Assembly: GCA_016204605.1 (NCBI GenBank)
Contig: JACQKK010000002.1
Location: 1-41,058 of the forward strand
Direction of reading: 5' to 3'
Length of the DNA: 41,058 nt
From: Candidatus Lambdaproteobacteria bacterium
Lineage (GTDB): Bacteria > SAR324 > JACQKK01
The position numbers and the translations under genes are program-made. Below are positions 7,382 to 20,271 of the stretch, one piece after another. The notes beneath the pieces are model-generated. The model made no database searches. It had not been told where the DNA came from and worked only from the letters and a program-made list of their open reading frames with translations. Positions within the stretch are counted from its first letter, which is position 1; every line of letters begins with the position of its first letter.

Positions 7382-9001
7382 ATGGACGTCAATCGCGCGC
7401 CACTCACCCCCATCAGCCTGCTGCGGCGCAGCGTGCGCGTGTTCCCCGAGCGTACGGCCGTCGTCTACGGGGCGCGTCGGGTCAGCTATCGCGAGTTCGG
7501 CGAGCGCATCAGCCGCCTGGCCAACGGGCTGGCAGCCCTGGGCATCGGCCTGGCGAGCAAGGTGGCGCTGGTGGCTCCGAACATCCCCATGATGCTCGAA
7601 GCCCACGCGGCGGTGCCGACGCTCGGCGGCGTGGTGGTGCCGATCAACACGCGCCTGCAGCCGGCCGAGGTCGGCTACATCCTGGGCCACGCCCGGGCCG
7701 AGGCGGTGCTGATCGACCGGGCGTCGGTGGAGCTGTTGCGCCCGGTGCTGGCCGGGCTGCCCGCCCTGCGCCAGGTGGTGGTGGTGGAGGATGCCGCGGC
7801 CGGGGTCGAGAGCGGATGGCGACCGCCCGGCGCCCTGGACTACGAGACGCTGCTGGCCCGCTCGCCCGCCGCCGAGCCCGCGCTGGCCCTGCGCGACGAG
7901 GAGCAGCCGATCGCCATCAACTACACCAGCGGCACGACGGGTCCCCCGAAGGGCGTGGTGTTCAGCCATCGCGGCGCGTTTCTCAACACCGTCTGCAACG
8001 CCCTGCAGTACGGGCTGGATCGCGCCTCGGTGTTCCTGTGGGTGGTGCCGATCTACCACTGCAACGGCTGGTGCTTCGCCTGGACGGTGCCGGCCCTCGG
8101 GGCCGCCAGCGTCTGCCAGCGGCGGATCGAGCCGCTGCGGATGCGGGAGCTGATCGCCGCCGAGCGAGTCACCCACTTCTGCGGCGCGCCCGTGGTGCTC
8201 CAATTCCTGGCCAACCTGCCGGATGCCCCGGCGTTCCGGTTCCCGCGCACCGTGCGGGCGGTCACCGGGGGCGCCGCCCCTTCGCCCACGCTGCTGGCCG
8301 CGATGCGCCGCATGAACGTGGACGTCACGCACATTTACGGGCTCACCGAGACCTACGGACCGTTCACGGTGTGCGAGCCGCAGGACGAATGGCGCGGGCT
8401 ACCGGAGGCCGAGTGGGCCGAGCGCATGGCCCACCAGGGCGTGGACAACCTGCTCGCCGGCGAGGTGGCGGTGCTCGATGGCGAGCTGCACCCGGTACCG
8501 GCCGACGGCCGCACCATGGGCGAGATCTGCATGCGCGGCAACCTCGTGATGGAGCGCTATCACGAAGACCCTGCGGCCACCGCCGAAGCCTTCGCAGGGG
8601 GCTGGTTCCACAGCGGAGACCTGGGGGTGCTGCACGCCGACGGCTCCATCGAGCTGCGCGACCGGGCCAAGGACATCATCGTCAGCGGCGGCGAGAACAT
8701 CTCCTCGATCGAGGTGGAGAACGTGCTGGCGTCGCACCCGGCGCTCGAGGAGGTGGCGGTCGTCTCCAGCCCCGATCGGCAGTGGGGCGAAGTGCCGGTG
8801 GCCTTCGTGCGCGTCCGCCCCGGCAGCCGGCTCAGCGAGGCCGAGCTGATCGCCTTCTGCCGCGAGCGGCTGGCGCATTTCAAGTGTCCCAAGCGCGTGT
8901 TCTTCGAGCCGCCGCCGCGCACGTCCACCGGGAAGGTGCAGAAGTATGCCCTGCGCGAGCGCATGTGGCAGGGCGAACCGCGCCGGATTCGTGGCCACTG
9001 A
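7382..9001 (+). CDS. Acyl-CoA synthetase (AMP-forming, ANL superfamily)
   Basis: The 539-residue enzyme carries the P-loop YTSGTTGPPKG at 181-191, the A5 motif YGLTETYGP, the A7 hinge region SGDLG...RAKDIIVSGGENIS, and the C-terminal catalytic lysine in TSTGKVQK. It activates a carboxylic acid with ATP and forms the CoA thioester. GGENIS and the overall length fit the medium/long-chain fatty acyl-CoA ligase branch. The start ATG at 7382 (MDVNRAPLTPISLLRRS) matches the family, although no strong Shine-Dalgarno precedes it. The next gene is 85 bases downstream on the same strand and may be co-transcribed. Confidence 0.93.
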   Translation: MDVNRAPLTPISLLRRSVRVFPERTAVVYGARRVSYREFGERISRLANGLAALGIGLASKVALVAPNIPMMLEAHAAVPTLGGVVVPINTRLQPAEVGYILGHARAEAVLIDRASVELLRPVLAGLPALRQVVVVEDAAAGVESGWRPPGALDYETLLARSPAAEPALALRDEEQPIAINYTSGTTGPPKGVVFSHRGAFLNTVCNALQYGLDRASVFLWVVPIYHCNGWCFAWTVPALGAASVCQRRIEPLRMRELIAAERVTHFCGAPVVLQFLANLPDAPAFRFPRTVRAVTGGAAPSPTLLAAMRRMNVDVTHIYGLTETYGPFTVCEPQDEWRGLPEAEWAERMAHQGVDNLLAGEVAVLDGELHPVPADGRTMGEICMRGNLVMERYHEDPAATAEAFAGGWFHSGDLGVLHADGSIELRDRAKDIIVSGGENISSIEVENVLASHPALEEVAVVSSPDRQWGEVPVAFVRVRPGSRLSEAELIAFCRERLAHFKCPKRVFFEPPPRTSTGKVQKYALRERMWQGEPRRIRGH

Positions 9002-9086
9002 GCCGGGCGCACGGTGCCCGGCATCGCTGGGGCCGGCCGCTGCCGGCAGGCGCCCCGGGCGGGGCAGGCCGCCAAGGAGACAGACC

Positions 9087-10205
9087 ATGAACGATAGCGT
9101 GTTTGCGTTGGCGGACGAGCTGGGCCCCGCGAAGATGGTGCACCTGTACGAGCCCGCGGTCGGCCTGAAGGCGGTGGTGGCCGTGGACAACGTGGCCATC
9201 GGCCCCTCCATCGGCGGCATCCGCATGGCGCCCGACGTGAGCGCCGAGGAGGCGTTTCGCCTCGCCCGCGCCATGACGCTGAAGAATGCCGCCGCCGGCC
9301 TTTCCCACGGCGGCGGCAAGGCGGTCATCGTCGCCGACCCCCGCATGGCCAGGGGCGAGAAGGAACGGCTGATCCGCGCCTTCGCCGTGGCCATCCGGGA
9401 GTTGGGCGATTACATCCCGGGGCCCGACATGGGCACCGACGAGACGTGCATGGCCTGGATCCACGACGAGATCGGCCGCGGGGTGGGGCTGCCCCGGGAG
9501 CTGGGCGGCATTCCGCTGGACGAGATCGGCGCCACCGGCTGGGGCTTGTTCCACGCCATCGAAGTGGCACTGCCCCACTGTGGCTTCGGGCTCGAGGGGG
9601 CGCGGTTCGTCATCCAGGGCTTCGGGGCCGTGGGCATGCACGCGGCGCGCTTCCTCTCGGAGCATGGCGCCGTGCTGGTCGCCGCCGCCACCAGCCAGGG
9701 CACGCTGCACGATCCCAAGGGGCTCGATGTGGCGCGCCTGATCCGCACCCGCGCCGCGGGCGGCAACATCCTCGCAGGCGGCGGCGCGGTGCTGCCGCGC
9801 GAGGCCGTGCTGGAGATCGACTGCGACATCTGGATTCCCGCGGCGCGGCCCGACGTGGTCAACGAGTCCAACGTCGATCGCCTCCGCGCCCGGCTGGTGG
9901 CGCAGGGGGCCAACATCCCCTGCACCCCCGGGGCGGAGCGGCGGCTGGCTCAGCGCGGCGTGCTGGTGCTGCCCGACTTCATCGCCAACGCCGGGGGGGT
10001 GATCTGCGCGGCGGTCGAGTACCGCGGCGGCAGCGAAACCGTGGCCCTCGATACCATCCAGCAGAAGATCCGCGCCAACGTGGCCGCCATGCTGGATGCG
10101 GCCAAGCGGGAAGGCCGGCTCCCGCGCGAGGCGGCCGTGGCCATGGCCAGGCAGCGCGTGCTGCGCGCCATGCGCCTCCGGCGCTGGGGCGACCGCGCCG
10201 CCTGA
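9087..10205 (+). CDS. Glu/Leu/Phe/Val-type amino-acid dehydrogenase
   Basis: The 372-residue protein is in the ELFV dehydrogenase superfamily. The N-domain has GGIRM and the catalytic-lysine motif SHGGGKAVI with Lys78, followed by GPDMGTDE with the catalytic Asp. The C-domain is a Rossmann fold with VIQGFGAVGMHAARFL. It reversibly deaminates an amino acid to a 2-oxoacid with NAD(P)+. The short length and GGG-K context resemble leucine/valine dehydrogenases more than the ~420-residue glutamate enzymes, but specificity is inference. AAGGAGA precedes the ATG at 9087. The oxidoreductase genes directly downstream would consume its 2-oxoacid product. Confidence 0.88.
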   Translation: MNDSVFALADELGPAKMVHLYEPAVGLKAVVAVDNVAIGPSIGGIRMAPDVSAEEAFRLARAMTLKNAAAGLSHGGGKAVIVADPRMARGEKERLIRAFAVAIRELGDYIPGPDMGTDETCMAWIHDEIGRGVGLPRELGGIPLDEIGATGWGLFHAIEVALPHCGFGLEGARFVIQGFGAVGMHAARFLSEHGAVLVAAATSQGTLHDPKGLDVARLIRTRAAGGNILAGGGAVLPREAVLEIDCDIWIPAARPDVVNESNVDRLRARLVAQGANIPCTPGAERRLAQRGVLVLPDFIANAGGVICAAVEYRGGSETVALDTIQQKIRANVAAMLDAAKREGRLPREAAVAMARQRVLRAMRLRRWGDRAA

Positions 10206-10274
10206 GCCCCCCCGGGGCGCCGGGCAGCCCTGGGCCCGGCCGGCCGCGGCAGGAGCGGGCAGGAGCGAGAGGCC

Positions 10275-11210
10275 ATGTTTCGCGTGCGCTTTCACGGTCG
10301 CGGCGGGCAGGGGGTGAAGACGGCGAGCCGCGTGCTCGGCACGGCGCTGTTCCATGCCGGCTTCGAGGTGCAGGATGCGCCCCGCTACGGCGCCGAGCGG
10401 CGCGGGGCGCCCATCTTCGCCTACGTCCGGGCCGACCGGCAGCCGATCTTCGAGCGCGGCGTGATCGTGCGGCCGGATCTGGTGGTGGTGGTCGATGACA
10501 CGCTGCTCACGCTCCCGGCCGCGGCGGTGCTGCAGGGGATCGCCCCGCACACGCTGCTGCTGGTGCACTCCGCCCAGCCCGCCGAGGCCCTGCGGGCGAA
10601 GCTCAAGGCGCCCGGCCAGCTGGTGACCATCGCGCCGCGCGAGGTTGCGGCGACCGGCCTGCAGCCGCAGGGCGCCATGATGACCGTGGGCGCCGCCGCC
10701 CGGCTGCTGGGCGTCGTGCCGCGCCAGGCGCTCGAGTCGGCCGCCGGGGAGGAGCTGGCCGCCTTGCCCGCCAAGCTGCGGCAGCGCAGCCTGGCCCTGA
10801 CGCTCGACGGCTTCGACGGCGTGGAGGCGCCGGGCGGGCCGGTGCGCGAGCTGCCCGCCGAGCCCGCCGAGGACTACGATCGCCCGCGTTGGATCGCGCT
10901 GCCGTTCGAGGACGCGCGCATCGCCAGCCCCACCATCTACGGTGCGGGCACCAGCATGCTCTCCAAGACCGGGCTGTGGCGGGTGCAGCGGCCGGTCATC
11001 GACCGGGAGCGCTGCCGCCGCTGCGTGTGGGTGTGCGGCACGTATTGCCCCGACAACGCCATCGCCGCGGACGCGGGCGGCTACCCGGTGATCGACTACG
11101 ACCACTGCAAGGGCTGCATGATCTGCCTCGTCAACTGCCCGTCCCACGCCATCGCCGCCGTGGTCGAGTCGCAGGCGCGCGAGGCCGCAGCCGCGGGAGA
11201 CGCCCCATGA
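10275..11210 (+). CDS. 2-oxoacid:ferredoxin oxidoreductase, fused gamma-delta subunit
   Basis: Residues 1 to about 185 form the gamma domain (opens MFRVRFHGRGGQGVKTAS, with RYGAERRGAP). Residues 200-311 form a delta-type ferredoxin domain. Cysteines lie at 247, 250, 254 and 258 (C-x2-C-x3-C-x3-CP) and at 278, 281, 284 and 288 (C-x2-C-x2-C-x3-CP), enough for two [4Fe-4S] clusters. The first set has one residue more than the classical ferredoxin spacing. The gamma domain binds CoA; the delta domain relays electrons to ferredoxin. A GGAGCGAGAGG run precedes the ATG. The stop overlaps the next start (ATGA), so it is translationally coupled to the alpha subunit. Confidence 0.92.
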   Translation: MFRVRFHGRGGQGVKTASRVLGTALFHAGFEVQDAPRYGAERRGAPIFAYVRADRQPIFERGVIVRPDLVVVVDDTLLTLPAAAVLQGIAPHTLLLVHSAQPAEALRAKLKAPGQLVTIAPREVAATGLQPQGAMMTVGAAARLLGVVPRQALESAAGEELAALPAKLRQRSLALTLDGFDGVEAPGGPVRELPAEPAEDYDRPRWIALPFEDARIASPTIYGAGTSMLSKTGLWRVQRPVIDRERCRRCVWVCGTYCPDNAIAADAGGYPVIDYDHCKGCMICLVNCPSHAIAAVVESQAREAAAAGDAP

Positions 11211-12427
11211 CGCGCACGCTGTTGACGGGCAACGCGGCGGCGGCCTGGGGCGCCCGGCTCGCCGAGGCGGATTACGTGCCCGCGTTTCCCATCACCCCGC
11301 AGACGGAGATCATCGAGCTGCTCGCGGAGTGGATGCAGCGCGGCGCCATGGCCGGGCGCATCGTGATGCTGGAGTCGGAGCACTCGATGCTCACGGCCGC
11401 CGGCGCCGCCGCGGCCACCGGCGTGCGCGTCTTCACGGCCACCTCCAGCCAGGGGCTGCTCTACGCCATGGAGATGCTGTACACGGTCGCCGGCTGGCGC
11501 GTGCCGCTGGTGCTGGTGAACGTCTCGCGCGGGCTCGCCGCGCCCATCACCCTGGAGCCGGACCACAACGACGTGCTGGCCGTGCGGGACAGCGGCTTCC
11601 TCCAGTTCCATTGCGCCACCTGCCAGGAGGCGCTGGATGGCGTGCTGCTGGCCTACCGGCTGGCCGAGGACGCCCGGGTGCGCCTGCCGGTGATGGTCAA
11701 CATGGACGGCTTCTACCTCTCGTTCACCCGGGAGCCGGTGCGGCTCCCGGAGCCGGAGCAGGTGCGGCGCTTCCTGCCGCCCTTCGATCCCGAGACGCTG
11801 TACTTCCGCGCGGGCGCCCCGCGCTCGCAGGGCGTGGCGGTGCTGGGCGGCGCGCAGTACTCCTACTTCCGCTACGAGGCCCACCTGGCGTCGTTGGGCG
11901 CCCTCCGGGTGTTCGAGGAGGCTGCCGCGGAGTTCGCCCGGTTGTTCGGGCGCAGCTACGCGCCGCTCGAAACCTTTCACACCGCCGATGCGGAGTTCGC
12001 GTTCGTGATGCTGGGCGCCTTCGCCACCAAGGCCAAGCAGGCCGTGCTGCGGCTGCGCGAGGCGGGCTGGCGCATCGGGCTGGTGCGGCCGCGCCTGCTG
12101 CGCCCGTTCCCGGCCCAGGCGCTGGTGGAGGCGTTGGGCGGCCTGCGCGGGATTGCCGTGATCGACCAGAACCTCTCCACCGGCATGGGCGGGGTGCTGT
12201 GCAGCGAGATCGGCGCGGCCCTGCTGCGTGCCGGCGCCAGACCCGTCGTGGCGGGGTACGTCGGCGGCCTGGGCGGCCGCGACATCCCGGTGGAGGAGTT
12301 CTTCGAGATGGCGCGCGAGACCAAAGCCGCCGCGGAGGCCGGCCGCTGCCCGCCCACCCGGCTGCTCTACACCGAGGAGGAACTGCGCCAGACGCGGGCG
12401 CTCCAGGCCATCGCCATGGCCGAATGA
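11207..12427 (+). CDS. 2-oxoacid:ferredoxin oxidoreductase, alpha subunit
   Basis: The 406-residue product matches PorA-type alpha subunits: opening TGNAAAAWGARLAEADYVPA, the pyrimidine-binding region FPITPQTEIIELLAEW, and ESEHSMLTAAGAAAATGVRV. A domain II includes DQNLSTGMGGVLCSEI. It builds the TPP active site together with the beta subunit. The ATG at 11207 overlaps the preceding stop by four bases. The substrate could be pyruvate, a branched-chain 2-oxoacid or an arylpyruvate; the neighbouring amino-acid dehydrogenase favours an amino-acid-derived 2-oxoacid, which is inference. Confidence 0.92.
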   Translation: MTRTLLTGNAAAAWGARLAEADYVPAFPITPQTEIIELLAEWMQRGAMAGRIVMLESEHSMLTAAGAAAATGVRVFTATSSQGLLYAMEMLYTVAGWRVPLVLVNVSRGLAAPITLEPDHNDVLAVRDSGFLQFHCATCQEALDGVLLAYRLAEDARVRLPVMVNMDGFYLSFTREPVRLPEPEQVRRFLPPFDPETLYFRAGAPRSQGVAVLGGAQYSYFRYEAHLASLGALRVFEEAAAEFARLFGRSYAPLETFHTADAEFAFVMLGAFATKAKQAVLRLREAGWRIGLVRPRLLRPFPAQALVEALGGLRGIAVIDQNLSTGMGGVLCSEIGAALLRAGARPVVAGYVGGLGGRDIPVEEFFEMARETKAAAEAGRCPPTRLLYTEEELRQTRALQAIAMAE

Positions 12428-12494
12428 CCGGGGTGCCTGGGCCCGCGAGCCGGCGGCGCCGGGTGGCCGGCCGAGACTGCGGCGGGAGGATGTC

Positions 12495-13418
12495 ATGAGC
12501 GAAACCCGCTTCAAGGCCCTCAAGGACCTGCCGGCCCAGCACCTGCTGCTGCCGGGCACGCCGATGTGTCCCGGCTGCGGCGGGCTCGAGGTCGTCAAGC
12601 AGGTCTACGACGTGCTGGGGGAGAACACGGTGTTCGTCAATGCCGCGGGGTGCCTGACGCTGCTGGCCACCTACCCCTTCACGCCCTTCCGCGGCTCGTG
12701 GATCTACACCGCGATGGCCTCGGCGCCGGCCGGCGCCCAGGGCATCCGCGATGCCCTCGACATCCTGATCGCCAAGGGCAGACTGCCGCCGGCGCAGAAT
12801 CTGGACGTGGTCGTGCTCTCCGGCGATGGCGCGGCCTACGGGATGGGACTGGGGCCGACCTCGGCCGCCATCGACCGCGGGCTCGACTTCTACTACCTCT
12901 GCTACGACAACGAGGGGTACGGCAACACCGGGCAGCAGACCTCGGCCGCCACACCCGCGGGGGCGCGCACCGCCACCGACCACGGCCCGGTGGGCTTCGC
13001 GGGGGAGAAGAAGGACCTGTTCTCGATCTGGGTGGCCCACCACCCGCCCTATGTGGCCACGATCACCTCGGCCGATCCGGTCGACTTGGCCCGCAAGGTC
13101 GAGACGGCCCGCGGCCACGCGGGGCCGAAGCTGTTCATCGCCCTGGCCCAGTGCCCGACCGGCTGGCACTACGATCCCAAGGACACCGTCCAGATGGGCC
13201 GGCTGGCGGTGGCCACAGGCATCTGGCCGCTGAAAGCGTATGCCGGAGGGCGCGTCACCCACACCCGCAGGCCGAAGCCGAAAGGCGAGCGCCCGCCGGT
13301 GGAGGAGTATCTGCGTGCGCAGGGGCGCTTCGACCACCTGTTCTCGCCCACCCGCAACGAGGAGGCGCTGGCGCGCATCCAGGCCCGCGTCGACGCATAC
13401 TGGGATGCGGCCGAGTGA
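12495..13418 (+). CDS. 2-oxoacid:ferredoxin oxidoreductase, beta subunit (TPP-binding)
   Basis: The 307-residue product has the cluster-ligand pair CPGC at 25-28 and the TPP/Mg motif GDG at 110-112, continuing to the family's NEGYGNTGQQTS stretch. Together with alpha and gamma-delta it decarboxylates a 2-oxoacid, transfers the acyl group to CoA and reduces ferredoxin. GGGAGGA precedes ATG 12495, 67 bases after the alpha subunit. No ferredoxin gene is visible in the window, so the electron acceptor is encoded elsewhere. Confidence 0.92.
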   Translation: MSETRFKALKDLPAQHLLLPGTPMCPGCGGLEVVKQVYDVLGENTVFVNAAGCLTLLATYPFTPFRGSWIYTAMASAPAGAQGIRDALDILIAKGRLPPAQNLDVVVLSGDGAAYGMGLGPTSAAIDRGLDFYYLCYDNEGYGNTGQQTSAATPAGARTATDHGPVGFAGEKKDLFSIWVAHHPPYVATITSADPVDLARKVETARGHAGPKLFIALAQCPTGWHYDPKDTVQMGRLAVATGIWPLKAYAGGRVTHTRRPKPKGERPPVEEYLRAQGRFDHLFSPTRNEEALARIQARVDAYWDAAE

Positions 13419-13679: not shown

Positions 13680-14756
13680 CTACCGCGTGCCTGCCGGCGG
13701 CCCGATCCGCCGCGTGACCGAGCGGTAGAAGCCGAAGGTCGGGACGAAGGACGAGTGGGGGCCCGGCCCGCCCGAGACCAGCACGTGGATATCCTCGGCC
13801 CTACCCGTGATGGGAATGAGCTCGTCCGGGTTCGCGGTATCGACCCATTTCGGGTAGTTGCCGAAGCGGTTCGGCTCGTGGCTGCGCATCAGCAGGCGCA
13901 GCGGGCTGCGGGCCTTTTCCCACAGGAACTGCTGCACGTCCTGCCGCGTGAAGCCGCCCCGGGCCAGGGTGTGGGCATGCTCCGGGCAGAGCACCACCAG
14001 CAGGTCGCCCATGGTGACGCCCATCGAGTTGTTGTGGGCGCTGGTGGCCATCAGCCGCGCCAAGGCGGTGAGCGTACCGTGGGGGGAGTACATCACCTGG
14101 TCATGCAGGTTGTGCGGGCTTTCGCCCGAGTAGACCGTCACGGTGCTGTCCTCCCTCGCGAACCCCCTCGTCAGACGGAACGGCTCCCAGGGCGTGGCCG
14201 CCTCGTTCTCCGCGATGCAGGCGCTGAATTTGGCCGGCGAGCCCTGGCACGACTGGTCGCCGGCACCCGGCACGCCGCCGCCCACATTGATCAGCACCAG
14301 CCGCAGGGCGCGGCCGATGCTCGCGTTGGCGCGGAAGCCCGGGCCGAACACGCCGTGGCTGAAGTTCAGCCCGACCTGCTGCACGACCGGCCCGGTGACG
14401 ACGCTCAGCACGCTGCAGGGATGGGTCGTGGCCTGGACGCTGTAGAGCCCGAAGGCCGGGTCGCAGGCCGCCTCGAGGGCGGCCAGCAGCACCGGCATGT
14501 ACTCGGGCCGGCAGCCCGCCATCACCGCGTTGATGGCGACGTTCTCCACGGTGGCCTCGGCCCAGCGCGGCGGCACCGCGCCGATCACGTCGCCGGCCGG
14601 GCGCCCCGCGCCCGCGATCATGGCCTGCACCCGCGCCTCGGTGGGCAGGGTGAAGGCGAGCCCGTCCGTCCAGCGCCGGGCGTGGAACGCCTCGGTGACC
14701 TCGTCCTCGTCGCGGAAGCTCAGGTGCTCTGCATGCAGTTCCGGTGGCGTCGTCAC
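13680..14756 (-). CDS. Conserved protein of unknown function, paralog of the C-terminal domain of the next gene
   Basis: This 358-residue soluble protein shares an ordered motif set with residues ~198-580 of the gene at 14965-16707. The motifs are W(S/T)DGL, TVE-x-(I/V)A, NAV(M/L)AGCRP, GPG(F/W)RANA(S/T)IGRALRL, and INxGG followed by PGxxD, then a (W)EP(F/L)R segment. The Cys of AGCRP is conserved in both. No nucleotide-binding, heme or signal-peptide motif is seen. The start is a GTG at 14756 preceded by AGGAGC. The CaiB and MaoC-like genes upstream on the same strand suggest a role in CoA-linked catabolism, but the reaction is unknown. I do not recognise a named family. Confidence 0.8.
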   Translation of the reverse strand: MTTPPELHAEHLSFRDEDEVTEAFHARRWTDGLAFTLPTEARVQAMIAGAGRPAGDVIGAVPPRWAEATVENVAINAVMAGCRPEYMPVLLAALEAACDPAFGLYSVQATTHPCSVLSVVTGPVVQQVGLNFSHGVFGPGFRANASIGRALRLVLINVGGGVPGAGDQSCQGSPAKFSACIAENEAATPWEPFRLTRGFAREDSTVTVYSGESPHNLHDQVMYSPHGTLTALARLMATSAHNNSMGVTMGDLLVVLCPEHAHTLARGGFTRQDVQQFLWEKARSPLRLLMRSHEPNRFGNYPKWVDTANPDELIPITGRAEDIHVLVSGGPGPHSSFVPTFGFYRSVTRRIGPPAGTR

Positions 14757-14964
14757 GGGGCTGTGCTCCTGTAAAGTTCTGTATAGGTGGCGCTTCTGTG
14801 AGACCGCTCTGCATCAAGTCGGGTGAAACGATCCGCGTCCCTGAGGAGCGCGAAGCGCATCTCGAAGGGCGCGGCCTTCGAGACGGCACGCGGCACGGTA
14901 AGTGACTTGGTTGCGAAATAGGATAGCGGCCATGCTCCAGCCAGTGTGACGGGGCACAGAGCGG
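14757..14964 (-). pseudogene. Possible remnant of a third paralog's 3' end
   Basis: Between the two paralogous genes, the leftward frame reads AWPLSYFATKSLTVPRAVSK. This aligns with the C-terminus of the upstream gene, GWGRSYFVTKAVALPRAFER (S-Y-F-x-T-K and P-R-A identical). After that it diverges and has no start of its own. This looks like the tail left by deletion of a tandem copy. The match is short, so chance similarity is possible. Confidence 0.4.
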
Positions 14965-16707
14965 TCACGCGCCACCACCCGCCGCCGGCGTCTCCCACTC
15001 CCGCTCCCCTTCGCGCAGGCGCTCGAACGCCCGCGGCAGCGCGACCGCCTTGGTGACGAAGTACGAGCGTCCCCAGCCCCAGGTGGAGACATACGCGAAG
15101 ATGGCCGGGCCGGGGGCGCCGGCAGCCACTACCTTCAGGCTTTCCGGCGCGCGCAGCAGCGGCACCGGGGCCGCGGGGTCGCCCTGCGCCCGCTCCAGCA
15201 GCTCCTGCGGCAGCGGGATGCCCCCGCTGTTGGGGCCGGCCGCCTTGTGGGTGAAGAACTCCCGCGCCGGGAGCGAGGCCGCCCCGTGGATCAGTTCCTG
15301 AAACGCGCGGCGCGAGATGCCGTCGCGGCGCAGGGGGGCGAAGGCGTATGGGCTGAGGATGACCAGGTTGTCCGCGCCCCAGTTCTCGGGCAGGCGGTCG
15401 TACTTCGCGCGCGCCTGGCGGACGATCAGCTCCCGCAGCGAGCCGGTGGTGGCGCTTTCCGGCTGCACGATATCCACCTGCCAGGTCATGGCGGCCAGCA
15501 CGCTCACGGTGGTCTCGTGGGCGCCGAAGCCCTCGGCCACGCGCAGGGGCTCCCAGTGCGGCGGATAGGCGGCCTCGCGCTCCGCCAGCACGTGCACGTT
15601 CATGAACGGCGATCCGAAGGACTTCAGGTCCGTGTCGCCGGGCCAGCAGCCGCCGAGGTTGATCATGATCAGCCGCAGCGCGCGGCCGATGGTGGCGTTG
15701 GCCCGCCAGCCGGGCCCCATCGCGCCGAAGCCGGTGTTGAGGTTCATCGCGTCGATCGCGGCCGGGCCGCTCACGACCAGCAGGGGCGCGGCAGGGCCGG
15801 CCGTGCAGGCCACCCCCTGCAGGTCGAAGCGCGGATCGGCCAGCGCCTCGACGGCCGCGATCAGCAGCGGCAGGTGGTGGGGCCGGCAGCCCGCCAGCAC
15901 CGCATTGACGGCGATCCGCTCCACCGTGGCCGCAGCGCCCAGGGGCTCGATCAGCCCCACCACGTGCGCCGGCGGCAGCTCCGTGCCGGCCAGCATGCGC
16001 TCCACCGCGTCCCGGCGCGGGGGCACGAGGGGCAGGCCGTCGCTCCAGCGGTGGCGCAGGAAGAACTGCTCCATGCGCTCCATCGCCTCGGAGTAGTCGG
16101 CGCCCTGGAACACCGGCAACGCGTCCGAGGCGGTTGCGCTCGCCGCGGCCTCGGGAGCCCCCGTGCGCAGCGCCGCCAGCAGCGCCTCGGCCGCCCACTC
16201 GCCCAGCTTGAGCCGCTCGATCTCGGCCCGGGGCGGCACGACGGCGTGGGCCAGCTCCACCACGTTCAGGCGCGGCAGTCCCGCGGCGGCCGCATTGTTG
16301 CGGGCGCTGGCGGCGAAGCCCTGCACGACCAGGAACACCGCCGGCCGGCCCAGCCGCTCGATCCCGGCGACGTCGCGCGCGGTCTTGGCCGTGGGGTTGC
16401 CGCCCTCGCCGGTCAGGGCGATCACCGCATCGCTCTCCGCGGCGATCCGGGCGAGCAGGGGCGCCTTGGCCTCCGCGTCGAGGGGGAAGGGCACCTCCCA
16501 GGTGCGGATCGGCACGTCGGGGAGACGCTGCCGCAGCCCCGCCAGCAGAAACGGCAGCAACGCCACGCCCCCGGCCCGCGTGTTGTTGAGGATGCCGAGG
16601 CGCTTGCCGCGCCACGCCCGCACGGGCACCACGGGCGTGATGGGGGCGAGGGCGGGGGGCTCGCCCCGCGGGCTCATCACCTCCAGCCGTACCGATGTGC
16701 TGTCCAC
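14965..16707 (-). CDS. UGSC-like domain protein fused to the paralogous unknown domain
   Basis: The 580-residue product has two parts. Residues ~30-180 resemble the UGSC (seleno)protein domain: GKRLGILNNTRAGG, then a Rossmann-like strand DAVIALTGEGGNPTAK followed by TARDVAGIERLGRPAV. In UGSC proteins the matching loop carries Sec/Cys-Gly-Ser-Cys before (V/R)DAxxLE; here the loop is T99-G-E-G-G-N-P-T106, with no Sec or Cys. Residues ~198-580 are homologous to the gene at 13680-14756 (RWSDGLP, TVERIAVNAVLAGCRP, GPGWRANATIGRALRL). GTG 16707 is preceded by AGGAGC at good spacing, and upstream in-frame sequence is repeat-derived. Function unknown. Position downstream of CaiB and MaoC genes suggests CoA-ester chemistry. 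Confidence 0.75.
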   Translation of the reverse strand: MDSTSVRLEVMSPRGEPPALAPITPVVPVRAWRGKRLGILNNTRAGGVALLPFLLAGLRQRLPDVPIRTWEVPFPLDAEAKAPLLARIAAESDAVIALTGEGGNPTAKTARDVAGIERLGRPAVFLVVQGFAASARNNAAAAGLPRLNVVELAHAVVPPRAEIERLKLGEWAAEALLAALRTGAPEAAASATASDALPVFQGADYSEAMERMEQFFLRHRWSDGLPLVPPRRDAVERMLAGTELPPAHVVGLIEPLGAAATVERIAVNAVLAGCRPHHLPLLIAAVEALADPRFDLQGVACTAGPAAPLLVVSGPAAIDAMNLNTGFGAMGPGWRANATIGRALRLIMINLGGCWPGDTDLKSFGSPFMNVHVLAEREAAYPPHWEPLRVAEGFGAHETTVSVLAAMTWQVDIVQPESATTGSLRELIVRQARAKYDRLPENWGADNLVILSPYAFAPLRRDGISRRAFQELIHGAASLPAREFFTHKAAGPNSGGIPLPQELLERAQGDPAAPVPLLRAPESLKVVAAGAPGPAIFAYVSTWGWGRSYFVTKAVALPRAFERLREGEREWETPAAGGGA

Positions 16708-16775
16708 CGTTGCTCCTGTCCGAAGGCGGCCCGTGTCCGGGGGGCCTGCCGGTTCGTGGCTCTGCGGCAGCGCGC

Positions 16776-16840
16776 GTCCCCACCCCGCCCTGTCGGGCAC
16801 CCCTCCCCACATGGTGGGGAGGGGCTGGGGCGGGGACGCC
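16776..16840. repeat. Dispersed C/G-rich palindromic element (copy 2)
   Basis: Perfect 11-bp arms CCCCTCCCCAC (16800-16810) and GTGGGGAGGGG (16814-16824) around ATG, flanked by GTCCCCACCCCGCCC on the left and GGGGCGGGGAC on the right, which can extend the pairing. The reverse complement closely resembles copy 4 near 40700. It separates the MaoC-like gene from the UGSC-like gene and may attenuate the operon. Confidence 0.7.
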
Positions 16841-16853
16841 GGAACGATCGGCG

Positions 16854-17966
16854 TCAGCGCCGGGGCAGCTCGACGACCGCCCAGCCCTTGAGGGTGGTTT
16901 CGCCCCGCTGATCGAGCGCCTGCACGTCCAGCCGCACCCGTCCCGTTCCGTCGCTCCCCGGCTCCTTGGCCGTCACCTGGGCGCGGCAGGTGGTGATATC
17001 GCCGATCAGGTTGAATCGGCGCACCTCGCAGTACAGCTCCGCCAGGAAGCCGCGGTCGCCGATCCAGTTGGTGAGCAGCGTCGCCATCCAGGCGATCCGC
17101 TCCGGCCCGTAGTCGTACGCCTCCGGCACGCCGACGCTGCGCGCCAGCGCCGAATCCCAGTGCACGGCCTCGGGGGGCTCGGGCACCCCGTAGGCGTTGG
17201 GCAGACCCGCCGCCGGGTGTGCCCTGAGGTACTCGAACCAGTAGCCGTGGGCCCAGATGAACAGCCCGCCCCAGGCCTGCTCGAAGGCGATGGCCGTGGT
17301 CGCCGTGTAGGGGCCGCGCACGATCTCCGGGATCGCGCTCCCCACCTCGACCTCCTCCCAGGTGAGCGGCTCGGCACCGCGGCAGCGCTCGCGCGCATAG
17401 CGCCCGGCGACGTCGGCGAGCTGCTCGGCAGTGACGGGCTTGCGTTCGAGCCGCTCGTACTTGGCGGTCTTGCGGGCGGCGACGCGCTCGGTGCGCATGC
17501 CCCAGGAGTCGGACTCGGCGATCTGCTCGCCCTGATCGGTGCGAAACCGGATCAGCGAAATCTGCTTGAACATGCGCCGGGCAAAGCGGCTGGGCAGCTC
17601 GACCAGGTCCTTGTAGGTGACCTCGGTGTGGATGCGCTCGCCGAGGCGCGCCGGCCGGCGCCAGCGCCACCACGAGCCCCCGAACATGGCATGGACGCCC
17701 GGCAGCCCGCCGCGGTAGCCGATCGAGAGCCGGTCGAACGCGTAGAGCATGCACGGCGGAGCGATCAGCGTGCCATGCGGACCGCGCGCGGCGTAGGCCT
17801 CGTCGAGGTAGAGCGGGTTGCGGTCACCCGTGGCCCAGGCCCAGTGGCGGATGGCATCGCGGGTGACCTCGGTCAGGTAGGGCGGCTCGACGATCGTCAT
17901 GCGCTGCCCGAGCTTCCGCCGCTGGCGGTCGAGCTCCGCCTCGGTGACCCGCACGTCCTGTGTCAT
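16854..17966 (-). CDS. MaoC-like / FAS1-type dehydratase (double hotdog)
   Basis: The 370-residue protein has an N-terminal hotdog half of the FAS1_DH type (residues ~20-170: RHWAWATGDRNPLYLDEAYA, GTLIAPPCMLYAF). The second half (~200-365) contains VRGPYTATTAIAFEQAWGGL and ends in LKGWAVVELPRR. Such proteins hydrate enoyl-CoAs or dehydrate 3-hydroxyacyl-CoAs; the Asp-Arg-Asn-Pro-Leu-Tyr segment sits where hydratase-2-type active-site residues lie. The ATG overlaps the CaiB stop by four bases (ATGA), so the two are translationally coupled. Substrate unknown. Confidence 0.85.
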   Translation of the reverse strand: MTQDVRVTEAELDRQRRKLGQRMTIVEPPYLTEVTRDAIRHWAWATGDRNPLYLDEAYAARGPHGTLIAPPCMLYAFDRLSIGYRGGLPGVHAMFGGSWWRWRRPARLGERIHTEVTYKDLVELPSRFARRMFKQISLIRFRTDQGEQIAESDSWGMRTERVAARKTAKYERLERKPVTAEQLADVAGRYARERCRGAEPLTWEEVEVGSAIPEIVRGPYTATTAIAFEQAWGGLFIWAHGYWFEYLRAHPAAGLPNAYGVPEPPEAVHWDSALARSVGVPEAYDYGPERIAWMATLLTNWIGDRGFLAELYCEVRRFNLIGDITTCRAQVTAKEPGSDGTGRVRLDVQALDQRGETTLKGWAVVELPRR

Positions 17967-19231
17967 GGCGCCTCTTCTCCGTGATCGCGTGTGCCGGGCC
18001 CACGCCGGTCGGCCTCGGCCGCCACCCCCTCGGCGATGAGGCGCTCGATGGTCGCCCCGTCGCAGCCGGCGAGGGTCGCCAGCACGGCGCGGGTGTGCTC
18101 TCCCAAGAGCGGCGGCGGGCCCAGCGGCGGCAACTCCCCGCCGCCCCGCAGGCGCAGGGGACCCCGCACCAGGGGCACGCTGCCGCCCAGCGGGTGGGGC
18201 GTTTCAGCCACCAGCCCGCGCTCCCGGACATAGGGTTGCGTGAGCGCCTGGCCGATATCGTGGACGGGCGCGTTGGGGATGTCGGCCTCGTCGAAGATGC
18301 GCTGCCACTCCGCCAGCGTCTTGCGGGCGAGGATGCCGGTGACGATGGCCTCCAGCTCCTCGCGCCGGTCCCGCCGCTGCCCGGTGGTGCGAAACCGCGG
18401 GTTCTCGGCCAGATCGTCCCGGCCCACGGCCCGGCAGAACTTGCGCCAGAAGGAACCCTGGTGCAGGGCCAGGATGATGTGGCCGTCCCGCACGGGGAAG
18501 CGCCCGTAAGGCACGATGCTGTGGTGTCCGCTCCCGACCCGCCCCGGGCTCTCGCCGGTGACGAGAAACAGCTCGCCCAGGTAGCCGAGCAGCCCGAGCA
18601 GCCCGTCGAGCAGGCTCAGGTCGATGTGCGCCCCCTCGCCCCGCGTTTGGTGCCGGTGGAGCGCGCCGAGCACGCCGATCGCCCCCCACAGGCCGCCGGC
18701 GAGGTCGCCCATGGGCAGACCCAGCTTCGTCGGGGGGCCCTGGGCCTCGCCGTTGATGCTCATCACGCCGCTCAGGGCCTGGGTCACCAGGTCGAACGAC
18801 GGCCTGCCGCTCAGCGTGCCGTCCTGCCCGAACCCGCTGATGGAGCACACGATCAGCCCCGGCCGCTCCGCCTGCAGCCGCGCGTAGCCGAGCCCGAGCC
18901 GCTCCATCACCCCGGGGCGGAAGTTCTCCACCACCACGTCCGCGTGGCGCACGAGGCGCAGGGCGATAGCGACGCCCTCCGCGCGCTTGAGGTCCAGCGC
19001 GACGCTGCGCTTGTTGCGGTTGACGGCCAGGAAATAGTGGCTCAGCCCGTTGACTAACGGGGGAATGGCGCGGGTCTGGTCGCCGGCGCCCGGCTCCTCC
19101 ACCTTGATGACCTCGGCCCCCAGGTCGGCCAGGATCATGGTGCAGAGCGGTCCGGCCAGCACGCGGCTGAAATCGACCACCCGCACCCCCGCCAGCATGC
19201 CCGGGCGCGGGGTCTCCATCGCTGCGGTCAT
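17963..19231 (-). CDS. CaiB/BaiF family (class III) CoA transferase
   Basis: The 422-residue enzyme has the family hallmarks: GVRVVDFSRVLAGPLCTMIL, ADLGAEVIKVEEP, NRNKRSVALDLK, VVVENFRPGVMERLGLGY, and the catalytic-Asp region GRPSFDLVTQALSGVM. It transfers CoA between an acyl-CoA and a free acid through an aspartyl-CoA thioester. ATG 19231 follows GGGGGAGGGC; an internal ATG four codons later is also possible. It heads the leftward cluster with the MaoC-like gene and the two unknown paralogs. Confidence 0.93.
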   Translation of the reverse strand: MTAAMETPRPGMLAGVRVVDFSRVLAGPLCTMILADLGAEVIKVEEPGAGDQTRAIPPLVNGLSHYFLAVNRNKRSVALDLKRAEGVAIALRLVRHADVVVENFRPGVMERLGLGYARLQAERPGLIVCSISGFGQDGTLSGRPSFDLVTQALSGVMSINGEAQGPPTKLGLPMGDLAGGLWGAIGVLGALHRHQTRGEGAHIDLSLLDGLLGLLGYLGELFLVTGESPGRVGSGHHSIVPYGRFPVRDGHIILALHQGSFWRKFCRAVGRDDLAENPRFRTTGQRRDRREELEAIVTGILARKTLAEWQRIFDEADIPNAPVHDIGQALTQPYVRERGLVAETPHPLGGSVPLVRGPLRLRGGGELPPLGPPPLLGEHTRAVLATLAGCDGATIERLIAEGVAAEADRRGPGTRDHGEEAP

Positions 19232-19486: not shown

Positions 19487-19924
19487 TCAGGGGCGTTGCA
19501 GGCGCCGGAGGTAGTGCACGACGCTCCAGATCGCCGTGCTGTCGAGCGCGCCCCGGAACGCGGGCATGGCGCCGCGGCCGACCTGAATCTGGGCCGCGAT
19601 CTGCCCGTCGCTCCACGCCGCAGCCGCCCCCAGCAGACTCGGCGGAGGCGGATTGAGCGCGGCCGCGCCGGGGCCATCGCCCCGGCCCTGTGCACCGTGG
19701 CAGATGGCGCAGTTCGCGTCGAAGACCGTCTTGCCCCGTGCGACGACGGCCTCGGAGGCGGGCAGCGGATTCTCGCCTGCCGACGGGGGTGGAGCCATCA
19801 TCATGTCCCGGCCGCCCATGCCGTGGCGCCGGTTGCCCACACCCATCCCCATGCCATAGGCGCCAACCGCCGCGGCGGCGACCAGCGCCAGCAGCAGCGC
19901 CGTCTGGAACAGTCTCTTCTCCAT
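19487..19924 (-). CDS. Exported class I c-type cytochrome
   Basis: The 145-residue precursor has a signal peptide/anchor at residues 1-24 and a Met/Gly-rich segment to ~45 (GMGMGVGNRRHGMGGRDMMM). A single heme-c domain follows, with C72-A-I-C75-H76 and a likely axial Met120 in GRGAMPAF. Such small periplasmic cytochromes carry electrons between complexes. The start MEKRLFQ at 19924 gives a clean signal peptide; a start nine codons upstream is open but less natural. It is the last intact gene of the leftward redox cluster. A damaged inverted copy lies just to its right. Confidence 0.85.
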   Translation of the reverse strand: MEKRLFQTALLLALVAAAAVGAYGMGMGVGNRRHGMGGRDMMMAPPPSAGENPLPASEAVVARGKTVFDANCAICHGAQGRGDGPGAAALNPPPPSLLGAAAAWSDGQIAAQIQVGRGAMPAFRGALDSTAIWSVVHYLRRLQRP

Positions 19925-20001
19925 ACATTCACCAGGTCTGCGGATCACCATGGCTCCGCGGATTGACGGGTACGCTCCCGCCTTGCCCGAAGGGGGAGGC
20001 A

Positions 20002-20271
20002 ATGAGATCAGATTCCCGCATCCTTGCAGAAGGCGCAGCCGCGCCTCCCCCTTCCTGCGCCAACGCCGTGGGTCACGGCGATGGCGCGGGGGCGGCCGTG
20101 CTCAGTCCGCGACCGCCGAATCTGCGCGGCGCCGTCGCGGGCTGGAGCGATGGACAGATCGCGGCGCGGATCAAGGCCGGCCGCGGCGCCATGCCCGCCT
20201 TCGGTGCGGCGATGGGCGACGAGGCCATCTGGGGTGTGGTGCATTACGTCCGCCGCTTGCAGGGCCGATAG
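20002..20271 (+). pseudogene. Inverted, heme-motif-less copy of the cytochrome c
   Basis: The 89-residue frame is homologous to the C-terminal half of the cytochrome on the other strand: WSDGQIAARIKAGRGAMPAF against WSDGQIAAQIQVGRGAMPAF, and IWGVVHYVRRLQGR against IWSVVHYLRRLQRP. The CAICHG segment is replaced by CANAVGHGDG, so the CxxCH heme site is gone, probably through a small deletion at TGCGCCAA. The signal peptide is also missing. It is most likely a degraded duplicate; an expressed heme-free remnant is possible, since the frame stays open after GGGGGAGG. Confidence 0.75.

Follow-up and report, generated by a model that had tools for sequence, protein, structure and literature searches.

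What does a UGSC selenoprotein domain do beside a coenzyme A (CoA) transferase gene when both of its redox residues are missing? The question is raised by a stretch of 41,058 nucleotides (contig JACQKK010000002.1, positions 1 to 41,058, assembly GCA_016204605.1; hereafter the window) from a Candidatus Lambdaproteobacteria bacterium of the SAR324 lineage. A minus-strand run of four genes encodes, in order, a CaiB-type CoA-transferase, a double-hotdog protein, a 580-residue fusion of a UGSC domain with a second domain (here the C-domain), and a 358-residue paralogue of that C-domain. Comparison with related proteins indicates that the 580-residue protein is likely a de-selenated derivative of the UGSC selenoenzyme family. 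The features needed first are these:

16707-14968, minus strand: fusion of UGSC domain and C-domain, 580 residues; PF24696 63.7 bits (cut-off 25); UGSC at about residues 30-185, C-domain at about 206-575
16404-16402, minus strand: former selenocysteine (Sec) codon, now GGC (Gly102); the position of the UGSC Cys is now CCC (Pro105)
14756-13683, minus strand: stand-alone C-domain protein, 358 residues; 38% identity with the C-domain of the fusion

Loss of the redox residues in the 580-residue protein

The UGSC loop of the 580-residue protein reads TGEGGNPT, with GGNP at the site of the motif, so that the U/C-G-S-C redox motif is absent from the window domain. A preliminary description made from the letters alone had reported a UGSC domain without Sec or Cys, and the codons GGC and CCC bear this out. 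It had left undecided whether the redox residue was lost or never present. A search of 58 genomes, the window's own included, revealed counterparts in two genomes of the same family (G007 and G005), 56% and 53% identical over nearly the full length. Both counterparts (loci L077 and L078) contain one in-frame TGA, predicted to be read as Sec. Their loop is TGDUGSCTAKTARDV, and the window has TGEGGNPTAKTARDV (TGEGGNPTAKT) at this place. The codons are TGA GGC TCC TGC and TGA GGC TCG TGC in the counterparts and GGC GGC AAC CCC in the window; against L077, six nucleotides differ across three key codons. Because TGA, TCC/TCG and TGC have all changed, the Gly/Pro state is not a single sequencing error. 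Read against counterparts that carry TGA and TGC at these sites, the window sequence indicates loss, Sec being replaced by Gly and Cys by Pro, and the alternative that the residue was never there falls away.

The UGSC domain of the window is 50.6 and 46.8% identical to those of the two counterparts, and the C-domain 62.1 and 58.6%, while the two Sec-type counterparts share 76.9% in UGSC and 73.7% in the C-domain. These identities indicate that since the loss of Sec the window UGSC domain, apparently relaxed, has diverged faster than the C-domain; weighing against this, the comparison has only two Sec-type counterparts. The faster divergence, with both redox residues gone, would also be expected if the 580-residue gene were decaying and functionless. 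We regard that as very improbable, as the reading frame is intact, the predicted structure is well formed (predicted local distance difference test score, pLDDT, 93.3; predicted template modelling score, pTM, 0.93), and a database protein 65% identical to it, P0123, has Gly and Pro at the same two sites.

In a C-domain tree (n=53), in which the Sec state of database rows was inferred from the start positions of their entries (P0124, P0194, P0005 and P0021 were rated Sec-type solely by entries starting right after the motif), the window fusion pairs with P0123 (support 100/97). The pair lies within a ten-member clade of UGSC fusions (100/100), together with both TGA-bearing counterparts and with Ser and Thr forms. 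The 358-residue protein belongs to a separate ten-member clade (100/100) with C-domains adjacent or fused to Sec-type UGSC. As the tree mixes TGA-bearing, Ser, Thr and Gly forms, Sec was probably lost more than once. Met occupies the Sec site in two plasmid-borne fusions, from Sporomusa and Vibrio, which stand apart in the tree and are both next to aconitase X; it also occurs in G046:C63. Among the 120 matches listed, the fused database proteins have S 12, T 9, G 2 and C 1 in the Sec column (24 rows covering it, of 75 aligned). Sec itself could not appear in this tally, because gene calling for the database takes TGA as a stop.

Selenocysteine use and distribution of UGSC domains

The genome of the window (3.84 Mb, 212 contigs, 80% complete) contains SelB (340.7 bits, cut-off 242), SelD (361 bits, cut-off 125) and tRNA-Sec (64.9 bits, gathering threshold 47), from which we infer that it can use selenocysteine. 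The SelD gene (L153, contig C180) itself has one in-frame TGA, and an end fragment of SelA lies at a contig edge, just below the cut-off. Seven UGSC domains were found in this genome with PF24696; six have one in-frame TGA, and only that of the window has none.

Across 52 genomes of the phylum, the window's own included, PF24696 gave 38 matches above the cut-off in 19 genomes, and none in 14 control genomes. One in-frame TGA is present in 35 of these matches and none in two (the window and G046:C63); the remaining one, a fragment, has TAA. A loop free of Sec and Cys is thus exceptional for UGSC domains in this phylum. An alignment of 44 UGSC rows, made of 31 of the 38 phylum matches (seven above the cut-off being left out) and 13 plasmid proteins, has U 29, C 11, M 3 and G 1 at the Sec site.

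Missed Sec codons also shape the database record. Proteins of about 420 residues are frequent among the 120 C-domain matches listed, and four of five inspected start inside the C-terminal part of UGSC, right after the Sec codon: P0005, P0011, P0021 and P0040 are entries of 400-421 residues for UGSC/C-domain fusions. Given the many entries of similar length, this looks like a wide gene-calling error at the Sec codon, and it accounts for many "hypothetical proteins" of this size.

Three separate observations concern this distribution. A contig from an assembly labelled as a Klebsiella pneumoniae metagenome (L044), possibly mis-binned, contains a UGSC/C-domain gene whose best segment is 45% identical to the 580-residue protein. 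On a Paracoccus ferrooxidans plasmid, selB lies near a C-domain gene (L092:10368-12143). At L034:10042-10854 a UGSC protein of the Cys type ends in a NifU-like domain (27.2 bits, cut-off 27).

Profile-level kinship between UGSC and the GrdB/PrdB Sec domain

To which enzymes is the UGSC domain related? We compared 44 UGSC domains with 14 GrdB/PrdB-like Sec domains read past the TGA (14 of 16 GRDB loci) by hhalign. The two profiles matched with a score of 50.2, a probability of 92.6 and a single-comparison E value of 4.5e-7, Sec being aligned on Sec. The maximum score in 200 column shuffles was 23.4, and the reversed profile scored 15.3. Masking the UGxC columns of the two profiles left a score of 42.0 (probability 82.4), and the Sec-type UGSC rows alone scored 48.8 against GrdB/PrdB. 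Among 333 decoys, a single GrdB-like sequence (34.7) outscored every non-UGSC protein (best 32.2); the top 16 decoys, all at 69 or higher, proved to be whole or partial UGSC proteins, and a further UGSC-derived piece scored 28.2. From these comparisons we conclude that UGSC, at the level of sequence profiles, is distantly related to the Sec domain found in glycine, betaine and proline reductase.

Several points weigh against this kinship. It rests on profiles. Removal of the one full GrdB-like sequence lowered the score to 39.6 and the probability to 76.1, and the single GrdB-like sequence alone reached a probability of 41.7. In a first comparison the domains reached only as far as the Sec codon, the end of the Pfam model, and nothing was found (probabilities 0.5 and 13.6). 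The window protein has no match to PF07355 (GRDB) at E ≤ 1. Finally, no kinship was detectable between the C-domain and the GrdE-like neighbour of GrdB (probability 0.5), so the analogy covers the Sec domain only. Such a neighbouring pair is seen in a related genome (L101:1501-3445), where a GrdB-like gene with an in-frame TGA (PF07355, 402 bits) is followed by a GrdE-like frame recognised by eye.

The UGSC family aligns with GrdB/PrdB Sec on Sec; those reductases use thioredoxin, and thioredoxin reductase genes lie beside UGSC/C-domain genes. The differences are that the window domain lacks the PF07355 match and that the partner of UGSC is the C-domain. The UGSC selenoproteins (PF24696, NF041046) resemble the N-domain of the window protein by profile, and relatives share its fusion to the C-domain, whereas the window domain has GGNP for UGSC and stays below the NF041046 equivalog cut-off (49.6 against 125 bits). 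The UGSC family and its fusion to an uncharacterised domain are already known: a 2008 report (PLoS Genet. 2008, PMC2398784) describes UGSC fused to a domain called "Unknown_1". That fusion is a selenoprotein with a conserved domain of unknown function, probably of the same architecture as the window protein. As far as the literature searched shows, the kinship with GrdB/PrdB, the thioredoxin fusions and neighbours, and a Gly/Pro derivative with TGA-bearing counterparts are new. Titles and abstract openings in the UGSC literature searched make no link between UGSC and GrdB/PrdB, and an earlier report elsewhere is possible.

The C-domain family

The preliminary description had placed the two C-domain proteins in an unnamed family defined by shared motifs. 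These motifs are near-invariant in 47 aligned C-domains, and no Pfam or NCBIfam name applies; the 358-residue protein matches no family of either collection at E ≤ 1. The lack of a name stands; the picture of an oddity of two members does not, as the genome holds 17 C-domains (E ≤ 0.001, 358-residue query) and the databases thousands. The same query gave 5744 protein homologues at E ≤ 0.001 among 7996 candidates scored. The C-domain family is not rare; it is large, often partners UGSC selenoproteins and has ties to thioredoxin. Between the two window C-domains the likeness (E 1.3e-56, 38% identity) is well beyond chance. Seven residues are invariant in all 47 (D31, G32, N76, N144, R149, E183 and E185 in 358-residue numbering), and C82 is kept in 44.

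Neither window C-domain protein has a PDB sequence match at E ≤ 10, and a sequence comparison of the shared domain with solved structures likewise gave nothing significant (best E 0.19). With the predicted structures (pLDDT 90.5 for the 358-residue protein), the first Foldseek matches in the PDB were class I fumarate hydratases: 7xky for the 358-residue model (E 2.3e-3) and 6uq8 for the 580-residue model (E 9e-5). These matches, the former weak, raise the alternative that C-domains act as hydro-lyases or isomerases in the entire family, with UGSC and thioredoxin as a redox switch or activator and the window pair as an unregulated version. Carboxylate hydro-lyases near other members, namely LeuC/LeuD-like proteins (L024), PrpD (L017, L084) and aconitase X (L093, L094), are in keeping with it, as are fusions whose Sec site holds Ser, Thr, Met or Gly. 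The fold matches of both models, however, have a root-mean-square deviation of about 16-17 Å and a template modelling score of 0.2-0.3. A class I fumarase-type Fe-S cluster needs more than one Cys ligand, and the single nearly invariant Cys of the C-domain, C82, is too few. We consider this alternative unlikely.

Connection to thioredoxin

Glycine, sarcosine, betaine and proline reductases use thioredoxin. We inspected 19 of 24 plasmid records with C-domains, of which 17 were annotated; UGSC was annotated or detected in the stretch at 16 of these 17 loci. Thioredoxin reductase (TIGR01292, above the cut-off) lies within 6 kb at three of them, in Variovorax SRS16, Roseovarius THAF8 and Arthrobacter ERGS1:01 (L029, L031, L034), the last also with TrxA, and thioredoxin reductase-like proteins below the cut-off were seen at two more.

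Some C-domains are preceded, in the same protein, by a domain of about 110 residues with a CxTC motif. In an alignment of 24 such domains (the query and 23 among the 120 matches listed), C17, T19, C20 and P75-T76 are invariant. Against the PDB, the CxTC profile matched 46 sequences at E ≤ 1 (best E 0.0014), and 45 of them are thioredoxins. Judged by sequence, the same C-domain is thus joined to a Sec reductase-like domain in some proteins and to a thioredoxin-like domain in others, and the UGSC/C-domain family is likely thioredoxin-driven. Against this stand the weak Pfam result for the CxTC domain (Thioredoxin_2 matches 8 of 24, best E 8.7e-5) and two CxTC fusions from relatives, of which L081 scores 20.5 bits (Pfam cut-off 27) and L083 has no match. 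In addition, the window genes examined include none recognised as coding for thioredoxin or its reductase.

CoA-transferase, double-hotdog protein and substrate

The two genes ahead of the C-domain pair are as follows:

19231-17966, minus strand: class III CoA-transferase (CaiB/BaiF type), encoded at the head of the cluster; PF02515 421.7 bits (cut-off 23.3)
17966-16857, minus strand: MaoC/FAS1_DH double-hotdog protein, predicted acyl-CoA hydratase/dehydratase; PF13452 55.4 bits and PF01575 31 bits, both above the cut-offs

Profiles and coordinates agree with the four leftward genes of the preliminary description (CoA transferase, double hotdog, UGSC fusion and 358-residue paralogue). The PF02515 match of the CaiB protein is full length (profile positions 1-366 of 366), and the closest solved structure is succinate--hydroxymethylglutarate CoA-transferase 9br6 (E 4.8e-83). 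Under the NCBIfam equivalog cut-offs it falls short both as a succinate-glutarate transferase (308 against 750) and as a mesaconate transferase (282 against 700). The top solved match of the double-hotdog protein is the (R)-specific enoyl-CoA hydratase 5cpg (E 1.4e-7), and no NCBIfam equivalog cut-off is reached. Itaconate/mesaconate-type CoA pathways pair a class III CoA-transferase with a FAS1_DH-type hydratase. The same two enzyme classes stand side by side in the window, which differs in the absence of equivalog-level scores and of a CoA-ester lyase among the four genes.

The presence of CaiB and MaoC suggests a CoA-activated acid. Two findings weigh against it. The hydratase-2 motif carries His where the N-half motif of the hotdog protein, TGDRNPLY, has Tyr, its Asp being kept, so that hydration is not assured. 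The caiB-maoC-580-358 layout was not found around the counterparts L077 and L078 (contigs of 8.9 and 10.1 kb); the former lies next to genes that by eye resemble nitrogen assimilation, the latter next to a TRAP transporter, and neither has caiB or maoC. The arrangement is for this reason weak evidence, and the link of CaiB/MaoC to the C-domain genes is local. The four-gene neighbourhood of the preliminary description is hence missing at these two loci, though CoA-transferase genes recur near other members, within 6 kb at 5 of the 17 annotated plasmid loci (L028, L031, L089, L090, L091; four haloarchaeal). By profile, four of these five transferases belong to class III.

The two counterpart loci without caiB or maoC would fit CaiB and MaoC being chance neighbours, with C-domain proteins unrelated to CoA esters. 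We think this rather improbable: the start of maoC overlaps the end of caiB and all four genes are co-directional, CoA-transferase genes recur at the plasmid loci, and in contig C127 of the same genome a MaoC gene adjoins a C-domain array, on the opposite strand.

Neighbours of other members narrow the choice of acid. In contig C210 of the window genome, a Sec-type fusion is followed by genes for a flavin adenine dinucleotide (FAD)-dependent tricarballylate dehydrogenase, at 536 bits against a cut-off of 369, and for a relative of methylisocitrate lyase. Around the C-domain/UGSC array of C127 lie, besides the MaoC protein, two components of isopropylmalate dehydratase, LeuC above the cut-off and a LeuD-like subunit, and PrpD-type proteins occur near C-domain members in C125 of the same genome and in G001. 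TRAP or tripartite tricarboxylate transporter genes are found at several C-domain loci. Other neighbours (SDR, GMC and LLM-type oxidoreductases, ABC transporters) do not point to carboxylates. With low confidence, the neighbours suggest a di- or tricarboxylate, without singling out one substrate.

Proposed function

We propose, at somewhat less than even confidence, that CaiB and MaoC make a CoA ester on which the C-domain proteins act as a non-redox descendant of a family of selenoenzymes likely driven by thioredoxin. CaiB and MaoC would convert a small carboxylic acid to its CoA ester and hydrate it. The C-domain of ordinary members would hold the acid substrate, as its conserved Arg, Asn and Glu residues suggest; the Sec or Cys of UGSC would attack the held substrate, by analogy with GrdB/PrdB; and thioredoxin would resolve the adduct and regenerate the Sec or Cys, as in Stickland reductases. 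Our confidence in this analogy-based family mechanism is moderate. In the window protein the UGSC domain may now be structural, with its fold kept in the model and its chemistry gone, and the C-domain, with most conserved residues kept, may carry the remaining activity, perhaps jointly with the 358-residue paralogue.

If the window UGSC has no redox chemistry, the remaining C-domain activity would be non-redox or would borrow a Sec-type UGSC from elsewhere. The second option, window C-domain proteins still redox-active with UGSC supplied in trans from another locus, draws on the 17 C-domains against 7 UGSC domains (6 with in-frame TGA) in the genome, which leave many C-domains without a UGSC of their own, and on the clustering of the 358-residue protein with C-domains that adjoin a Sec-type UGSC or are joined to one. 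It seems to us quite unlikely, since the 580-residue protein has a UGSC domain of its own, confidently packed in the model, which would fill the docking site.

Turning from the non-redox reading of the window pair to the family, we suggest more tentatively that UGSC, C-domain and thioredoxin form a large undescribed class of thioredoxin-driven seleno-/thiol-reductases for organic acids, sharing Sec-domain ancestry with GrdB/PrdB and widespread in haloarchaea and environmental bacteria. Some members, among them the window pair, would have dropped Sec/Cys (Gly/Pro, Ser, Thr, Met) and become non-redox enzymes on a CoA-activated acid. The GrdB/PrdB kinship, the partner domain and thioredoxin together would make the function of a long-unexplained selenoprotein family testable, and the window protein offers a natural case of selenium loss for learning what the partner domain does alone.

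Other genes near the cluster

On the plus strand of the window, positions 8946-13418 hold a glutamate/leucine dehydrogenase-type gene followed by genes for the gamma-delta, alpha and beta subunits of a 2-oxoacid:ferredoxin oxidoreductase. A small c-type cytochrome is encoded immediately upstream of caiB (19490-20002, minus strand).

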